From contig JAGBWO010000220.1 of NCBI GenBank assembly GCA_017629765.1, positions 1-34,229 on the forward strand: a stretch of DNA of 34,229 bases. The letters run 5' to 3'. Positions 13,139 through 30,636 of this stretch are shown piece after piece (position 1 is the stretch's first letter; each line of letters begins with the position of its first letter). The notes under the pieces are model-generated. The model did not search any database. It saw only the letters and a program-made list of their open reading frames with translations, and had not been told where the DNA came from. The stretch is from Opitutales bacterium (lineage in GTDB: Bacteria > Verrucomicrobiota > Verrucomicrobiia > Opitutales > Intestinicryptomonadaceae). The position numbers and the translations under genes are program-made.

Positions 13139-15616
13139 TTACTTCCTTCTGCGGTATGCCGCGAATGCAAGTGCTATCGCGCCGAAGATTGCCGCGTATG
13201 TTGAAGGTTCGGGAACTACGATGTTGTTTGTGTAGTAAACAACCAACTGCATAAAGTTTATGTTGTTTCCTTCGGCATCTTGGAATTCTTCGCTTTCATT
13301 GTATTCCAAGGCGAAACGGTAACTATCTTCATCGCTTGCCAACAAAACCGAAACGAATTCTTCATACGCATATACGTCTTCCGGATTGGAAACATCAAAA
13401 AGCTCGCCGAACACTGTAGGATTAGGATCTGATGTTTGGAAGAGAACATATCTTGCTTCATCCTGTGGAGTTGTGATATTTGAAAGGTCAACAGTTATCA
13501 TACCATTGCTTGTGTTATTATTCCAAGTCAAGTTCGTGATGGGAGTAATACCTGTATCATCTACAACAAATTCAATCATACCACCACTATTAAGCTTGAA
13601 ACCGTTATGATTATCACCATCAGAGTTTTTGATTACAATAGAGCTTCCACCACCTACAATGCGGAATATACCTTTACCTGCAGATTCATCCCAATTATCA
13701 GTATCTTTACCAACTTCAAGACCAGATAGTAAGATTTCATTGCCAGAACCCATTACTTCAAAGGTTACATCAGAAGTATATTGCTTGCCACCCCATTCGT
13801 TAACCTTAAGCCATACACCTCTGCCATCGCCACGAGTTAATGTTGTATTGCCTTGGAATGAGTAAGAAATAGATGTTGTACTATCGAGAGCCTGAGAGCC
13901 TTGCAAAATCATTTCACCCGAACGAATAACAAGATGATTCTTATTATCTGCATTTGAACCTTTGAAAGATGCACTAATGAAACCTCCTAAAGATTCATCC
14001 TGTGTAGAATCATTACTTGTTTTAAAATTGTTTACACTAAGAGTATTTCCTTCGCCAGTCATTGTAAACCATACAGTATTGCCATCTACTAACGTTTTGT
14101 TTGTCAAATTGAAGTCGTTAGTAACATACATAGTATTGTTTTGACCTGAAATATTGATGTTGTGCGTTGCACCAACACCAACGAAAGATTCCCATTTATC
14201 CCTTATGTTAATAGTAGAATTGCTTGCATTTTCATCAATATTGAAATTAGCAACACCAGTTGATTTTTCAGTATTATTACCTGAATTAAAATATACACTA
14301 CTAATATCTACAGTATTGTTTTCTCCAGAAACAAAGAATGTAGCAGAACCCGAAGCAGCTTCGTTATTACCAATATTCAAATTAGAGTTTGAATAAAGCG
14401 AAGTATAACCTAACAAGTTTAATTCTGTATTGAATGAGCTTTGGTCAAAATATACAGTCCCCATTCTTAGATTTATATCACCAATGAAAACAGCTTCGGT
14501 ATAACCGTTTTCCATATCAGTACCCTGCTGATTCCAAATAATACTACCAACCGAGCTTTGACATGCACCGGCATTGGCAAATTCTAAAGACCAAGCTGAA
14601 AACTTAGAACCACCCTCCAAATTCAATACAAAGATATCATTTTCGGAAGAGAAAGTATTCCAGCCCAAATTAACATTACCACCACCTGCAATGTTTCCTC
14701 TTTCTTCTTCTTTTAAGTCCCAGAATCCAGTACCATCTGCAAGACCAACACCATTTACGATTGAACCATTTGTAAATGTAATAGAAGAATCAGTATTTTC
14801 GCCTAAACCTAAAAATAGAACATTGCCATTCCATTTTGCGCCAACATCGCTTGAAGTATCCCAACCACTATAATAAGCATTGATTACAGAATTATCAAAA
14901 ACAAACGAACCTTTATTACTCATACCAATCGATTCGTTATCTTTGCCGAAATTAAATGTTGAATTTGTAAATGTTACTGCAGAACCATTACGAGTTGTTA
15001 TCTTTCCATAGAAAGTTGAATCTTCTACATTTAATTCTTTTTCAGCATAAACCCAACCATTCATCTGGTAAAAAGTAGAACCATTTGCCAATGAAAGATT
15101 AGCACTTGAAGCACACTCTTGTCTTGAAATAAGAGTAGCATTATCAAGAGTCATATCAACATTATAAAGACCTGAAATAGAAACAGTAGCTCCATCTGAA
15201 ATATTTACATCGCTACCCCCATCTTGAGCAAAATTGCCTGTAATATAAAAATCATTCTTAACGTTGATTGTTGAATTCCACAAACCCGTAATAGTCATAT
15301 TTACAAGGCTGTCGGCAGAACCAATCGCAGCCGAAGTAGTCAGGGTGCTGTTATCCATCTTTACCCTAACCTGAGTGTCTGCCCAAGTATCCATTGTGGA
15401 CGGATACAGCCAAGGAACCACAGTTGAAGTAAAATCATTCCAACCGCCGCTATCATATTGAGTCCAAACATCGGCACTGTTAAAGTCTCCGTCGGAAACG
15501 TTGTTTGCCCTTATTCTGGCGTCAACGGGAATATCCGCTTCGGTCGTTTGGGAGTAAGCAACTCCCCCTGACAGCATAAGGGATGCAATAGATAGTTCTA
15601 ATAGTAATTTTTTCAT
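13139..15616 (-). CDS. Large PEP-CTERM surface protein
   Basis: The 825-residue product has a signal peptide (MKKLLLELSIASLMLSGGVAYS), an early segment typical of these proteins (NVSDGDFNSADVWTQYD), and a long Asn/Ser/Thr-rich array of short strands such as SSITFTNGSIVNG, NNTVDISSVYFNS and GENNTVDISS, consistent with a beta-helix adhesin. It ends in PEPST, a hydrophobic helix and AAYRRRK, the exosortase sorting signal, nearly identical to that of the protein at 8000-9715. The central coding part is clearly richer in A and T than either end. No catalytic motif was recognised. It is a single-gene unit with its own terminator. Attachment to exopolysaccharide or the outer surface is family-level knowledge, and the binding target is unknown. 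Confidence 0.88.
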   Translation of the reverse strand: MKKLLLELSIASLMLSGGVAYSQTTEADIPVDARIRANNVSDGDFNSADVWTQYDSGGWNDFTSTVVPWLYPSTMDTWADTQVRVKMDNSTLTTSAAIGSADSLVNMTITGLWNSTINVKNDFYITGNFAQDGGSDVNISDGATVSISGLYNVDMTLDNATLISRQECASSANLSLANGSTFYQMNGWVYAEKELNVEDSTFYGKITTRNGSAVTFTNSTFNFGKDNESIGMSNKGSFVFDNSVINAYYSGWDTSSDVGAKWNGNVLFLGLGENTDSSITFTNGSIVNGVGLADGTGFWDLKEEERGNIAGGGNVNLGWNTFSSENDIFVLNLEGGSKFSAWSLEFANAGACQSSVGSIIWNQQGTDMENGYTEAVFIGDINLRMGTVYFDQSSFNTELNLLGYTSLYSNSNLNIGNNEAASGSATFFVSGENNTVDISSVYFNSGNNTEKSTGVANFNIDENASNSTINIRDKWESFVGVGATHNINISGQNNTMYVTNDFNLTNKTLVDGNTVWFTMTGEGNTLSVNNFKTSNDSTQDESLGGFISASFKGSNADNKNHLVIRSGEMILQGSQALDSTTSISYSFQGNTTLTRGDGRGVWLKVNEWGGKQYTSDVTFEVMGSGNEILLSGLEVGKDTDNWDESAGKGIFRIVGGGSSIVIKNSDGDNHNGFKLNSGGMIEFVVDDTGITPITNLTWNNNTSNGMITVDLSNITTPQDEARYVLFQTSDPNPTVFGELFDVSNPEDVYAYEEFVSVLLASDEDSYRFALEYNESEEFQDAEGNNINFMQLVVYYTNNIVVPEPSTYAAIFGAIALAFAAYRRRK

Positions 15617-26954: not shown

Positions 26955-28670
26955 CTACAAATTTTCGTCGGGAAGAAGCTTTATCTTGGCGTTAGCCAAT
27001 TCCCCGACTGCGAAGTCGAATTTCTTGTCGGAAAAAACAGTCTTTTGCAGAATGCCGTCTTGGTTTTTATGCTTAAAAGACAGAGTCATCGAAGCCTTTG
27101 TCGGAGAAAGCCTTTTATAGGACAAACTTGCCTTGGCGAATTCGGCATTTTCCGAATCAAACATCGTTCCAGAACTTGCAGATGACATTGCAAGCAAATA
27201 CTCAGCCCCGCCAAAGGCGACTTCAAGCTTCCTGCCCTTCAACGATTTTGGAGCAAGGCAAGGCGATATCTGCAAAGCCGCAGCATTTGAATAGTCCGAC
27301 GAGCCATCGTTGTAAACCCTGCACCTGTAAGTTTTGCCGCCATACTCGGCGACAGTAGGCTTGGAAAGCTTCAAAGTGCTTTTTGTCGCTTTTTTTACGT
27401 CGGTCCAAACATTGTTTTCGTCCAAAACCTGCCATTGGTATTTGATTTTATAGCCGGCAGCCTTTGCGGTTAAAGTTATGTCGTACTCCTCATACAAATT
27501 TCCGAAGTCCGCATTTTCCTTGTTTTGCGAAGCCGAAATCCCCTCTATCTTTGCAGCCTGCCTTACAGTAAAGGCCACCCCCGACGTGTAAAGAATTTTC
27601 CCGCCGTTATAAACCATGCAGCGGTATTTTTTTGAATCCGACAAATAGTCCGCATTGGGCGGGACAAATATCGGCGAAACCGCGCCTTCTATGTTTTGCC
27701 AAACCCATACAAGTTTGCCTTTTTCGTTTGGAGCTTTCACATACTCCTGCCACTGATACTTGACATCATAGCCGTCTGCGCCCACCGCAAAACCCGAATT
27801 TTCGCCGTTTTCAAACACCGTCAAAGATTTCGGTTTTTGCGTGATTTTCGGATTTTTGCGGACAGTCAGAACCGCTTCGTCGGTATAGACGGGATTGCCG
27901 TTCTTTTCGTTTTGAATTTTCAATCGGTATTTAAATCCGTCCGACTTCAAATTGGCAGAAACTTTCAAAACATTCTTTGAACTGCCCGCCTTGACCCAGC
28001 CCTTGCCGTTTAGCTTGTCGACTTCCCAAGCGTAAATAAGCTTTTTGCCGTTTTCATCGCGTGCGGCGGCGGAAAACTCTACTTTCTTCCCTTCGTAAGT
28101 TTCGACGGAACGCGGCTGGGCTTCAATTCTTATGCCGCTTAAATCCTCTTCGGAAGGCTCCGCGTCAATATTGGCCAAAAGTTTGGAATCTTCAATTTTT
28201 CCGCCTGCCGAAACCGAAACTGCGTCATAAAAGAAAACGCCGCGGTTTTCAGAGCTTAAAACCCATGAATCATTTCTGAATATCAAATACTTAGAGCCGC
28301 TTTTTACCTTGTTTTCCGAACCCGACGTACCGCCCGAAACCAAAAGGGCAAATGGATTTCCGCCCCTTAAAAACTCGCCTCCACCAAGCTCGATATCGGC
28401 GTTTAGAGCGCATTTGCCATCCGAAACTTTCGCAACCGCAAGAACCAAAAAGCCGCCGAAAATCTTTCCCTCGCGCAATTCCGTGCCTGAAATAAGACTG
28501 AAATTTTCAAACGCGCCTTCTTGAATTCCGACAAGCAGCGCAGCCGTCCCGCTTTCAAGCGGATTTTTCGAAGCGTCGCAAATTCCGCCCGCATCCACAA
28601 ACATTTTAAACTCCGCCCTGAGGCAAAAAGCCAAGAGAAATATCGAAATTGCGCAAAAAACCCTTTTCAT
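26955..28670 (-). CDS. Secreted Ig-like repeat protein, partner of the TIGR02597 protein
   Basis: The 571-residue product has a signal peptide (MKRVFCAISIFLLAFCLRA). A domain at 20-170 of unknown family (FVDAGGICDASKNPLESGTAAL, then FLRGGNPFALLVSGG) follows. Next come three Ig-like domains at about 182-270, 275-369 and 373-468; the second and third show the YQWQ strand C and the YRC strand F pattern (KYQWQEYV...KKYRCMVYN; KYQWQVLD...KTYRCRVYN). The last 100 residues form a beta-rich C-terminal domain (KSLKGRKLEVAFGGAEYL, SLSYKRLSPTKASMTLSFKH). It has no PEP-CTERM, lipobox or sortase signal. A strong ribosome site (AGGAAAGGAAGG) precedes it, and it starts 12 bases after the TIGR02597 gene, so the two are one unit. 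A surface binding role is inferred from Ig-like domains only. Confidence 0.78.
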   Translation of the reverse strand: MKRVFCAISIFLLAFCLRAEFKMFVDAGGICDASKNPLESGTAALLVGIQEGAFENFSLISGTELREGKIFGGFLVLAVAKVSDGKCALNADIELGGGEFLRGGNPFALLVSGGTSGSENKVKSGSKYLIFRNDSWVLSSENRGVFFYDAVSVSAGGKIEDSKLLANIDAEPSEEDLSGIRIEAQPRSVETYEGKKVEFSAAARDENGKKLIYAWEVDKLNGKGWVKAGSSKNVLKVSANLKSDGFKYRLKIQNEKNGNPVYTDEAVLTVRKNPKITQKPKSLTVFENGENSGFAVGADGYDVKYQWQEYVKAPNEKGKLVWVWQNIEGAVSPIFVPPNADYLSDSKKYRCMVYNGGKILYTSGVAFTVRQAAKIEGISASQNKENADFGNLYEEYDITLTAKAAGYKIKYQWQVLDENNVWTDVKKATKSTLKLSKPTVAEYGGKTYRCRVYNDGSSDYSNAAALQISPCLAPKSLKGRKLEVAFGGAEYLLAMSSASSGTMFDSENAEFAKASLSYKRLSPTKASMTLSFKHKNQDGILQKTVFSDKKFDFAVGELANAKIKLLPDENL

Positions 28671-28682
28671 AACCTTCCTTTC

Positions 28683-29762
28683 CTACTCGGCATAATCGGG
28701 CGTTATTTTCACGCGCTTTGCCGTCTGCGGCGCAAGGCGCGAAAATCTGAAAATAACGGCATCTTTGGAATCCAAAATATCGCCGCCCGCCGAAACGGGA
28801 TTTTTAAAATCGGAGTCGAGCCTGAACCAACCTCCGTCATAAACGTATATTTTCGACGGCTTTTTGTTGACGCCTGATTCTGAATTGTCGAAAACCGCAA
28901 TAAAATCAGAATTTTGCGGATTTTCCAAAGACCCCGCATTCATTATTCCGTTTTCAAGCAAAACCGCAAATGACGAAATTTTAACCGACGTCAGCGTCGG
29001 GCTTGCAAAAAAGTTCTCCTGCCAAATTTCGCCCGACGGATTTTTAAAATCCAAAACCGACGCGCTTTTGAAGACTTCCCCGCAAATGTTCAGCCTAACA
29101 TCCCGCGGATTTCTCAAAATCAAAAAAGAATCCGGTTCTATGATTTCCCCTCCCGCATCAAAATCGAAAGAGCCGTTTTTCATAACCCAGCGGCCTCCGC
29201 CCGAATTTTTCAAGTAATAAAACACGCCCGAAACCGCCCTGTTTACGCCCTCGGGAATTTGCATTTCGCCGTTTTTATCGAAGTATGAATATTTAAAAAC
29301 ATACGAGCATCCGACGCCCGCGACTTCGCCTTCCGACGCCATAAGCCCCCCTCCGCCGGGGAACAGGGAATTCAAAGTCCAATGCGCGATTATTCTAAAA
29401 GAGTCCGACTTGTTTATTTTTGCAATTTCGGAAGAGTCGATATTCAAAACGACGCTTGAAGAGTCGTTTGACAAAATATTAAACCAAGCTCCTTTAAGGC
29501 TTCCCGACGAAAAAAGAACATAGTGCGTCCCCGCAAAACAGTTCTCATTCCAAATTTTAGTTTTTTGGGATATTGAATTTGCGCCGACATCCGAAACTTC
29601 GCCATGAAAATCGCTCTGATTTTTCGGATGAACCGCAATAAACGAATCGCCCGCCTTGCATTCAAAGGAATAAGACGCCAAAACGGGAGTTTCGCCAGAC
29701 TGCGCAAACGCTCCGTTTGCTGCGGCAAATAAAAGCAAACATATTTTTTTTAGAAAACGCAT
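28683..29762 (-). CDS. TIGR02597-like secreted protein
   Basis: The 359-residue product has a signal peptide (MRFLKKICLLLFAAANGAFA). The body is beta-rich with the landmarks I know from TIGR02597, a family seen mostly in Verrucomicrobia and Lentisphaerae: HYVLFSSGSLKGAWFNILSND, DSFRIIAHWTLNSLFPG (residues 120-136) and the late RVSIRN-like segments FLILRNPRDVRLNICGEVF. Members are thought to be exported; their function is unknown. I chose ATG at 29762 because the signal peptide starts there; the longer in-frame form from 29810 adds an unusual 16 residues. It is the first gene of the pair with the Ig-repeat protein. The preceding gene's terminator at 29811-29836 isolates the pair. Confidence 0.78.
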   Translation of the reverse strand: MRFLKKICLLLFAAANGAFAQSGETPVLASYSFECKAGDSFIAVHPKNQSDFHGEVSDVGANSISQKTKIWNENCFAGTHYVLFSSGSLKGAWFNILSNDSSSVVLNIDSSEIAKINKSDSFRIIAHWTLNSLFPGGGGLMASEGEVAGVGCSYVFKYSYFDKNGEMQIPEGVNRAVSGVFYYLKNSGGGRWVMKNGSFDFDAGGEIIEPDSFLILRNPRDVRLNICGEVFKSASVLDFKNPSGEIWQENFFASPTLTSVKISSFAVLLENGIMNAGSLENPQNSDFIAVFDNSESGVNKKPSKIYVYDGGWFRLDSDFKNPVSAGGDILDSKDAVIFRFSRLAPQTAKRVKITPDYAE

Positions 29763-29810: not shown

Positions 29811-29836
29811 AAAAAAAACCGCACATTTCTGCGCGG
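29811..29836 (-). terminator. Intrinsic terminator after the pseudouridine synthase-like gene
   Basis: CCGCAC (29819-29824) pairs with GCGCGG (29831-29836) with one G-T and a 6-base loop. On the minus strand an 8-base T run follows. It separates this gene from the TIGR02597-Ig pair. Confidence 0.75.
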
Positions 29837-29844
29837 AGCGGATT

Positions 29845-30636
29845 TTACAAATATCTGCTTTTGATTTTCTTTAAAAGAACCGAAAAACCCTTGGGAAGAG
29901 GAGCGGAAACTTCCATCTTTTCGCCGCCGCACGGAAAGGAAAGCCTTGAAAGATGAAGGGCGAGATTGTCGTAAACAGGCGCAAGCTCTTCTCCTTTAAA
30001 CTGCCCGTGCTTTAAGCGCGACAAATATATTTTGCGCACCCTGACGTAAGTATCGTCGCCAACCATTCTAAGCCCCGCCTCTGCGGCGTGAATTCTTATT
30101 TGGTGCCAGCGCAGGAAATTCGTCTTTGCCGACCATAGCTGCCATTCGCCGAAATCCTCTTTTAACTCAAAGCGGGTTTGGCATTTCTTGCCGAATCGGT
30201 GCGAAACTATTGTGCGCGGCTTGCTTTCGTGGCGGATTAAAGGCAAGTCTACAATCTCTTCAACTTTGCCATAGGGCCTTTCGCTCAAAAAAACAAACTC
30301 GAACTCAAACAGCCCCGAACCGAAAGCATTGCGAAGCCCGTCGCTCGACTCCTTGTTGGACGCGATTAACGCAACGCCCGATATCTCGGGGTCGGTTGCG
30401 AAAACGGCGTAAGGGCTTTCTATTCCGAGCCTTTCAAATTCCTTCTTACCCGGCTGCGACTTTATGCCGGCAATTATTGTCCGCGGATTTTCGGCAATGC
30501 CGTCCGCCTCGAGATAAAAGTTTGCGGGCTTGTTTATAGCAACAAATTTCCCCGCCCTGAATTCAAGCACATCGAAACGCACGGGCTTTTCTTCCAAAAG
30601 ACCTTCGGGGAACCCAAGCTTTTCAAAAACGGCCAT
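29845..30636 (-). CDS. RluA-like RNA pseudouridine synthase with atypical catalytic motif
   Basis: The 263-residue product has the RluA fold: VAINKPANFYLEADG at residues 32-46 corresponds to the opening KPxG strand, and RWHQIRIHAAEAGLRMVGDDTY (177-197) corresponds to RTHQIRxHLaxxGxPIxGDxxY. The catalytic motif HRLDxxTSG reads FATDPEISG (79-87), so the essential Asp82 is kept but the His-Arg-Leu before it is changed. The usual N-terminal S4 domain is absent. The target RNA position is unknown. I set the start at ATG 30636, immediately past the rpsT terminator; an in-frame TTG at 30675 lies inside that hairpin. It may be a divergent paralog or a family member with altered specificity. Confidence 0.78.
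   Translation of the reverse strand: MAVFEKLGFPEGLLEEKPVRFDVLEFRAGKFVAINKPANFYLEADGIAENPRTIIAGIKSQPGKKEFERLGIESPYAVFATDPEISGVALIASNKESSDGLRNAFGSGLFEFEFVFLSERPYGKVEEIVDLPLIRHESKPRTIVSHRFGKKCQTRFELKEDFGEWQLWSAKTNFLRWHQIRIHAAEAGLRMVGDDTYVRVRKIYLSRLKHGQFKGEELAPVYDNLALHLSRLSFPCGGEKMEVSAPLPKGFSVLLKKIKSRYL

Follow-up and report, generated by a model that had tools for sequence, protein, structure and literature searches.

A TIGR02597 gene and its Ig-repeat neighbour in an Opitutales bacterium: probably a derived form of a two-gene surface module

What is made by two adjacent genes that both encode secreted proteins, one of them from a family of unknown function and the other with immunoglobulin (Ig)-like repeats? 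The question is raised by a 34,229-nucleotide stretch of DNA from an Opitutales bacterium (contig JAGBWO010000220.1 of assembly GCA_017629765.1; hereafter the window), in which gene 1 encodes a member of the TIGR02597 family (T) and gene 2, directly downstream, encodes the Ig-repeat protein. Here, we propose that the pair is probably a derived version of a two-gene surface module, found across the phylum, in which the C-terminus of the second protein is exchangeable. This is based on TIGR02597 genes being paired with a downstream partner, on the partners having a common domain (P, defined as the region between the signal peptide and the C-terminal part of proteins encoded downstream of TIGR02597), on the different C-termini that follow this domain, on natural fusions of T and P, and on the Ig form having arisen among relatives with PEP-CTERM partners. 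The pair is conserved and, within the library searched, undescribed, its partner domain is unnamed, and it reaches wider than the first-pass annotation of this DNA, made by a model from the letters alone, had described.

The two open reading frames (ORFs) lie where that annotation had placed them, on the minus strand and in one common frame (Table 1). Its claim of two adjacent genes for secreted proteins, 12 bp apart, was borne out by the ORFs themselves, by a charged, hydrophobic, signal-peptide-like N-terminus in both proteins and by the TIGR02597 score of gene 1, which at 120 bits (cut-off 50; profile positions 10-311 of 363) makes it a member of the family; gene 1 has no match in Pfam. The mechanical ORF of gene 1 extends to 29810, and the length of 359 amino acids (aa) is counted from the ATG at 29762. 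Neither protein has a C-terminal transmembrane segment by hydropathy, a lipobox that could be seen by eye, or a match to the PEP-CTERM families (TIGR02595 / PF07589), the C-termini ...ITPDYAE and ...LLPDENL being without a hydrophobic stretch. The annotation's statement that no known anchor is present thus holds for the window pair, but not for the usual partner, which ends in a PEP-CTERM tail. A congener (G002, locus L031) has the equivalent pair in matching gene order, and the window pair is therefore not a chance arrangement.

How general is the pairing? Among 273 genomes of the order, TIGR02597 was matched in 102 and scored above cut-off in 53, and we considered 58 of the 59 above-cut-off places (G128:C47, above the cut-off only with its in-frame neighbours, was excluded). 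In 54 of these 58 loci the next gene lies on the same strand and no more than 120 bp downstream, the remaining four being two contig ends and two fusions, so that a conserved neighbourhood, whose absence was one half of what the first-pass annotation had named as grounds for dropping its proposal, does exist. The nature of the partner is another matter: the annotation expected an Ig-repeat protein, and the Ig type is found in only 2 of the 58 loci, namely the window and G002, which belong to one genus. The 54 downstream genes comprise 37 PEP-CTERM proteins recognised by motif (~200 aa), 12 of an fn3-like or repeat type (~560 aa, some of them cut by contig ends), the two of Ig type and three that are other or unclear, one of which (L085) is cut just past VPEPST. 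A PEP-CTERM protein as second gene is specific to this position, occurring in only 4 of the 194 other pairs of adjacent genes at these loci (Fisher p 2e-26).

Does the Ig-repeat protein belong with these partners? Pfam and NCBIfam hold no model for P, and the cores that we tested gave tail matches or chance-level matches only; to this extent the N-terminal domain of gene 2 is unassigned, as first annotated, although it can now be tied to the P domain of TIGR02597 partners. Aligned by hhalign, the N-domains of the window and G002 proteins match the cores of the PEP-CTERM partners with a score of 31.4 (E 6.6e-6, 151 columns) and those of four partners of their own family with 39.6. The fn3-type partners match the PEP-CTERM partners (E 4e-13); compared directly with the window N-domain they gave a score of 5.8, and this comparison failed. 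When a hidden Markov model (HMM) was built from partner domains other than those of the window and G002, it recovered both of these (E 3e-10 and 7e-12) from a set of 491 ORFs, and in the genome-wide search, with a profile of 31 partner domains that likewise left out these two, gene 2 is the sole match in the window genome (42.5 bits, E 7.1e-11; profile positions 14-172 of 177). It thus both matches the profile and follows a TIGR02597 gene, 12 bp away and in the same orientation. We obtained no model of the P fold itself, and a structure search with the co-fold model of T and P matched mainly the TIGR02597 barrel.

An alternative is that gene 2 encodes an unrelated adhesin that came to lie behind TIGR02597 in one genus, with its N-terminal similarity to P arising from beta-rich composition. 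The two Ig-type loci of 58 would fit this, as would the weak single-sequence similarity of the window protein (best phmmer E 8e-6 in a set of 54 proteins). We consider it very improbable, because the profile that had seen neither Ig-type protein finds gene 2 and nothing else in the genome, because the hhalign controls (20 column shuffles, at most 3.94; a reversed control, 3.7) fall far below 31.4, and because the position directly downstream of T is conserved.

In light of gene 2 carrying a P domain, how closely does P keep to T? The P profile matched 51 places in 44 of the 273 genomes, and 46 of the 51 are either fused to a TIGR02597 match or lie up to 3 kb downstream of one on the same strand. 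Counted from the other side, with 60 T places (the 58 above cut-off and the weaker G118:C93 and G020:C47), 43 have a P match within 3 kb. Among 387 genomes of the phylum, P was found in 26 and TIGR02597 in 54 (above cut-off in 35), while TIGR02597 was absent from all 14 control genomes; outside the order, 14 of 16 P places adjoin TIGR02597. In three genomes T and then P are read in one frame (L043 in G041, L104 in G058 and L166 in G118). These counts support a TIGR02597-centred, two-gene secreted module that is conserved across the order and the phylum.

What might such a module do? Most likely, the P protein keeps T at the cell surface or in the matrix, with the C-terminus of the P protein setting the place. 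T would be a soluble, secreted, beta-rich protein, exported like the P protein by Sec; the P domain would capture T, and the C-terminal module of the P protein would fix the complex on the cell surface, in the matrix or on a target. In most relatives this module would be a PEP-CTERM tail passed to the exosortase for the cell surface or the exopolysaccharide matrix; elsewhere it would consist of fn3, cadherin or HYDIN-type repeats, and in the window of three Ig-like domains and a beta-rich end, the Ig part presumably taking the place of the anchor. A role in the matrix or in adhesion is a first guess. More tentatively, the module may be a two-component surface receptor or adhesion system new to the phylum Verrucomicrobia, with TIGR02597 as a ligand-binding or structural subunit displayed by a dedicated P domain, the C-terminal module swapped by recombination, and sometimes several partners to one receptor; if so, one head could be placed in different surroundings. 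Either way, the partner domain, the exosortase-sorted proteins and the fusions turn TIGR02597 into a testable two-protein complex.

Several partners are indeed found at some loci. In G533 (L161, 2462-6663) one TIGR02597 gene is followed by four tandem P genes, each with a PEP-CTERM tail, and L071 and L074 have extra P genes with Gly-rich linkers and a different C-terminus. That one T can serve several P genes would also suit a periplasmic escort or chaperone, which would keep the P protein soluble until its C-terminus is processed or exported and would stay outside the final structure. We regard such a role for T as improbable: T is retained where the exosortase tail is gone (the window and the fn3-type loci), three genomes have it fused to P, and in L116 a 1639-aa frame ends with it, an arrangement unsuited to a recycled escort.

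Some observations weigh against the proposal that P proteins hold T at the surface. The co-folding that the first-pass annotation suggested, run on T fused to the P domain, gave a poor model (predicted local distance difference test, pLDDT, 54.8; predicted template-modelling score, pTM, 0.33) with no direct sign of binding, and a result of such low confidence speaks neither for nor against a complex. All three T-P fusions are confined to a single family and may go back to a single event. P was not matched within 3 kb of 17 of the 60 T places, two of which are at contig ends, and at many of which the neighbouring PEP-CTERM protein has diverged too far to score. In 40 cases the locus of a TIGR02597-matching frame has no P match, many of these loci being short, repeats of one place or below cut-off. 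Conversely, 5 of the 51 P places in the order (two of the five near contig starts) and 2 of the 16 outside it are not beside T, in counts made with a profile that was built from T neighbours and favours T-adjacent places, though matches elsewhere would still have been listed. Lastly, the presence of an exosortase does not track the type of C-terminus.

It may therefore be asked whether the two proteins touch at all, or are independent secreted components of a matrix or surface, co-expressed from an operon and needed together. The poor co-fold is compatible with this, as is the connection of PEP-CTERM proteins with exopolysaccharide and flocs in PMC1569441 and PMC9850573. Co-expression, however, requires neither natural fusions of T and P nor the near absence of P away from T, and we think independent components unlikely.

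If T is instead held by P, how did the Ig form come about? In a tree of 56 TIGR02597 proteins (L094 and L110 excluded; ten rows of unusual composition, both Ig-type rows among them), the window and G002 proteins pair with support 100/100 within a family clade of 100/100; the rest of this clade has PEP-CTERM partners (L030, L032, L033 and L034) or has lost the partner at a contig end (L029). The Ig pair is thus placed within a group of PEP-CTERM relatives, which makes the window a derived variant, and the simplest reading is that the tail was lost and Ig repeats were gained. Simple decay, in which a frameshift or truncation removed the PEP-CTERM tail, might be suspected, given that the partners in these four close relatives all end in a tail; yet the G002 protein stops at the identical C-terminal point, the C-terminal region is conserved and the two orthologues are 58% identical overall, so that we give decay next to no credence. 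The C-terminal ~100 residues of gene 2 match L031 with E 1e-20 and, weakly, other Ig proteins of the family. The Ig repeats themselves score below the Pfam gathering cut-offs (Ig_3 26.7 bits, cut-off 30; Ig_2 21.3, cut-off 27), and among solved structures an 'Immunoglobulin-like domain protein' (9ncf_S) matches this region with E 5e-9. The repeats could derive from the lineage's own stock, since related repeats are present in large proteins of genomes from the window's family.

The Ig type is one of four types of C-terminus that follow P, the others being PEP-CTERM, fn3-type and cadherin/HYDIN-type. The cadherin or HYDIN-type repeats occur in L112, L113 and L126, from metagenome-assembled genomes recorded as Akkermansia muciniphila or Verrucomicrobiia, with P assigned by HMM match in L112 and L113 and by alignment in L126. 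With Ig-like repeats replacing the exosortase tail, the window offers a natural experiment on whether the PEP-CTERM tail is an anchor only.

The loss of the tail is not explained by loss of the sorting enzyme, a cause that we considered and rejected: G025 and G049 have no exosortase match, but other genomes with long partners have one, as does the window genome. There the exosortase is encoded on contig C282 (TIGR04178 63.7 bits, cut-off 23; TIGR02602 83.1 bits, under its cut-off of 105.55) together with an EpsI-like gene (31.7 bits, cut-off 42.8), both just upstream of a second TIGR02597 gene that is cut by the contig end. At this locus (L029, 3574-8334) two esterase-like genes, matching pectin acetylesterase and acetylxylan esterase models below cut-off, the EpsI-like gene, the exosortase and the second TIGR02597 gene are consecutive. 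Elsewhere in the window an exosortase substrate is encoded as well: an 825-aa protein at 13139-15616 on the minus strand has a PEP-CTERM tail (TIGR02595 20.3 bits, cut-off 16).

What does the structure of T add? The AlphaFold2 model of mature gene 1 (pLDDT 82.4, pTM 0.81, from an alignment of 18 sequences) contains a small beta-barrel, which aligns with 6tba_7A at Z 10.0 (root-mean-square deviation 2.2 Å over 77 residues; VIA) and with 8vjh_D at Z 8.9; two proteins with broken or short frames (L128 and L129) were excluded from the structure alignments. The closest structures are tail-hub barrels from a gene transfer agent and from phages Chi and JBD30 (Z 8.4-10.0), and the barrel of TIGR02597 may possibly have a common ancestor with them. 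The barrels of Uba1 and EF-Tu also resemble that of gene 1 at Z ~7-8, and because of this we draw no function from it. With Foldseek, no Protein Data Bank (PDB) chain matched the TIGR02597 model at E ≤1e-3 (best E 1.7e-3); the TIGR02597 profile gave only two matches among PDB sequences, both at chance level; and a scan of viral contigs found no relative of TIGR02597. The structure comparison barely covered the second half of the model. Gene 1 also contains two copies of an internal repeat that align by hhalign with a score of 66.8, against at most 14.1 in 20 shuffles.

To what extent does the pair resemble known systems? By curated score gene 1 belongs to TIGR02597, an NCBIfam model whose description gives neither function nor partner, and a full-text literature search found no paper naming the family. 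Sorting by the PEP-CTERM/exosortase (EpsH) system fits most P proteins, which have a signal peptide and a PEP-CTERM tail, and an exosortase is present in the window genome, but gene 2 is without such a tail. The term 'tigr02597' is absent from the main text of PMC1569441, and no dedicated partner of the family appears in the part of that paper available to us. PepA (NF033554) is, like the usual partner, a small secreted PEP-CTERM protein, and the canonical partner in L111 reaches 40.4 bits against a cut-off of 80; homology was rejected, as ten tail-less cores, the window N-domain included, gave no match and the similarity lies mostly in the tail.

Choice-of-anchor domains, as named at NCBI, are single conserved domains with interchangeable C-terminal anchors. 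P likewise is a conserved domain with exchangeable C-termini, and one such model (NF012200) matches the C-terminal part of L126; unlike them, P is tied to a second protein, and no choice-of-anchor model matches P in the proteins tested. A literature search for choice-of-anchor with PEP-CTERM found no paper. A conserved module around a large Ig-domain protein has been described in Thermococcales (PMC8416519), but it is archaeal, its Ig gene is upstream, and neither TIGR02597 nor P is mentioned in the accessible part of that text. Within the library searched, and as far as its texts were available, searches of the literature on PEP-CTERM/exosortase and on Verrucomicrobia showed no description of the pair.

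Table 1. Positions in the window of the gene pair, its parts and the adjoining stem-loop
Feature	Position	Strand	Details	Basis
Stem-loop with T8 tail (terminator-like), between the pseudouridine-synthase-like gene and gene 1	29819..29836	-		
Gene 1 (TIGR02597 family, T), secreted	28683..29762	-	359 aa, ATG at 29762	
Gene 1 signal peptide	29703..29762	-	~20 residues; predicted end after ...GAFA, before QS (cleavage by eye)	Sequence and hydropathy
Gene 1 small beta-barrel	29382..29621	-	Mature residues 28-107	AlphaFold2 model and structure comparison
Gene 1 internal repeat, copy 1	29103..29249	-	Mature residues 152-200	hhalign
Gene 1 internal repeat, copy 2	28737..28874	-	Mature residues 277-322	hhalign
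Spacer, gene 1 to gene 2	28671..28682	-	12 bp	
Gene 2 (P domain and Ig-like repeats), secreted, without PEP-CTERM tail	26955..28670	-	571 aa	
Gene 2 signal peptide	28614..28670	-	~19 residues; predicted end after ...CLRA, before EF (cleavage by eye)	Sequence and hydropathy
Gene 2 N-terminal P domain	28161..28601	-	Common to PEP-CTERM partners of TIGR02597 elsewhere	HMM and hhalign
Gene 2 Ig-like region	27261..28130	-	~Three repeats, residues ~181-470 (limits by eye)	
Gene 2 beta-rich C-terminal region	26958..27260	-	Residues 471-571	

The window is a single contig of a 283-contig, 1.69 Mb genome. Upstream of the pair is a pseudouridine-synthase-like gene that ends at 29845, and downstream are YajC and SecDF; among 16 relatives where yajC was found, the Ig gene adjoins it only in the window and G002. 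The first-pass annotation had the pair isolated by an upstream terminator, and a stem-loop followed by T8 is present in that gap; as a scan of the region found 7 terminator-like sites against 6.6 in shuffles, which is chance level, its action as a terminator is plausible by position only.

Other arrangements of TIGR02597 were also seen. In L036, L037, L076 and L162 a gene for a secreted-type protein of 949 to >2200 aa lies directly upstream of the pair, the two that were tested having DNRLRE or tandem-95 repeats, and such genes may make the pair a three-gene module. Frames of ~650 aa in L021, L022 and L028, from one genus of the order (g4), match TIGR02597 in part (positions ~86-273 in L021 and L022, 35-285 in L028) and have no P domain. 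Part of TIGR02597 (profile positions ~33-239) is also found inside frames of >4000 aa in G083, G106, G116, G128, G139 and others, which suggests that giant proteins make use of the barrel as well.

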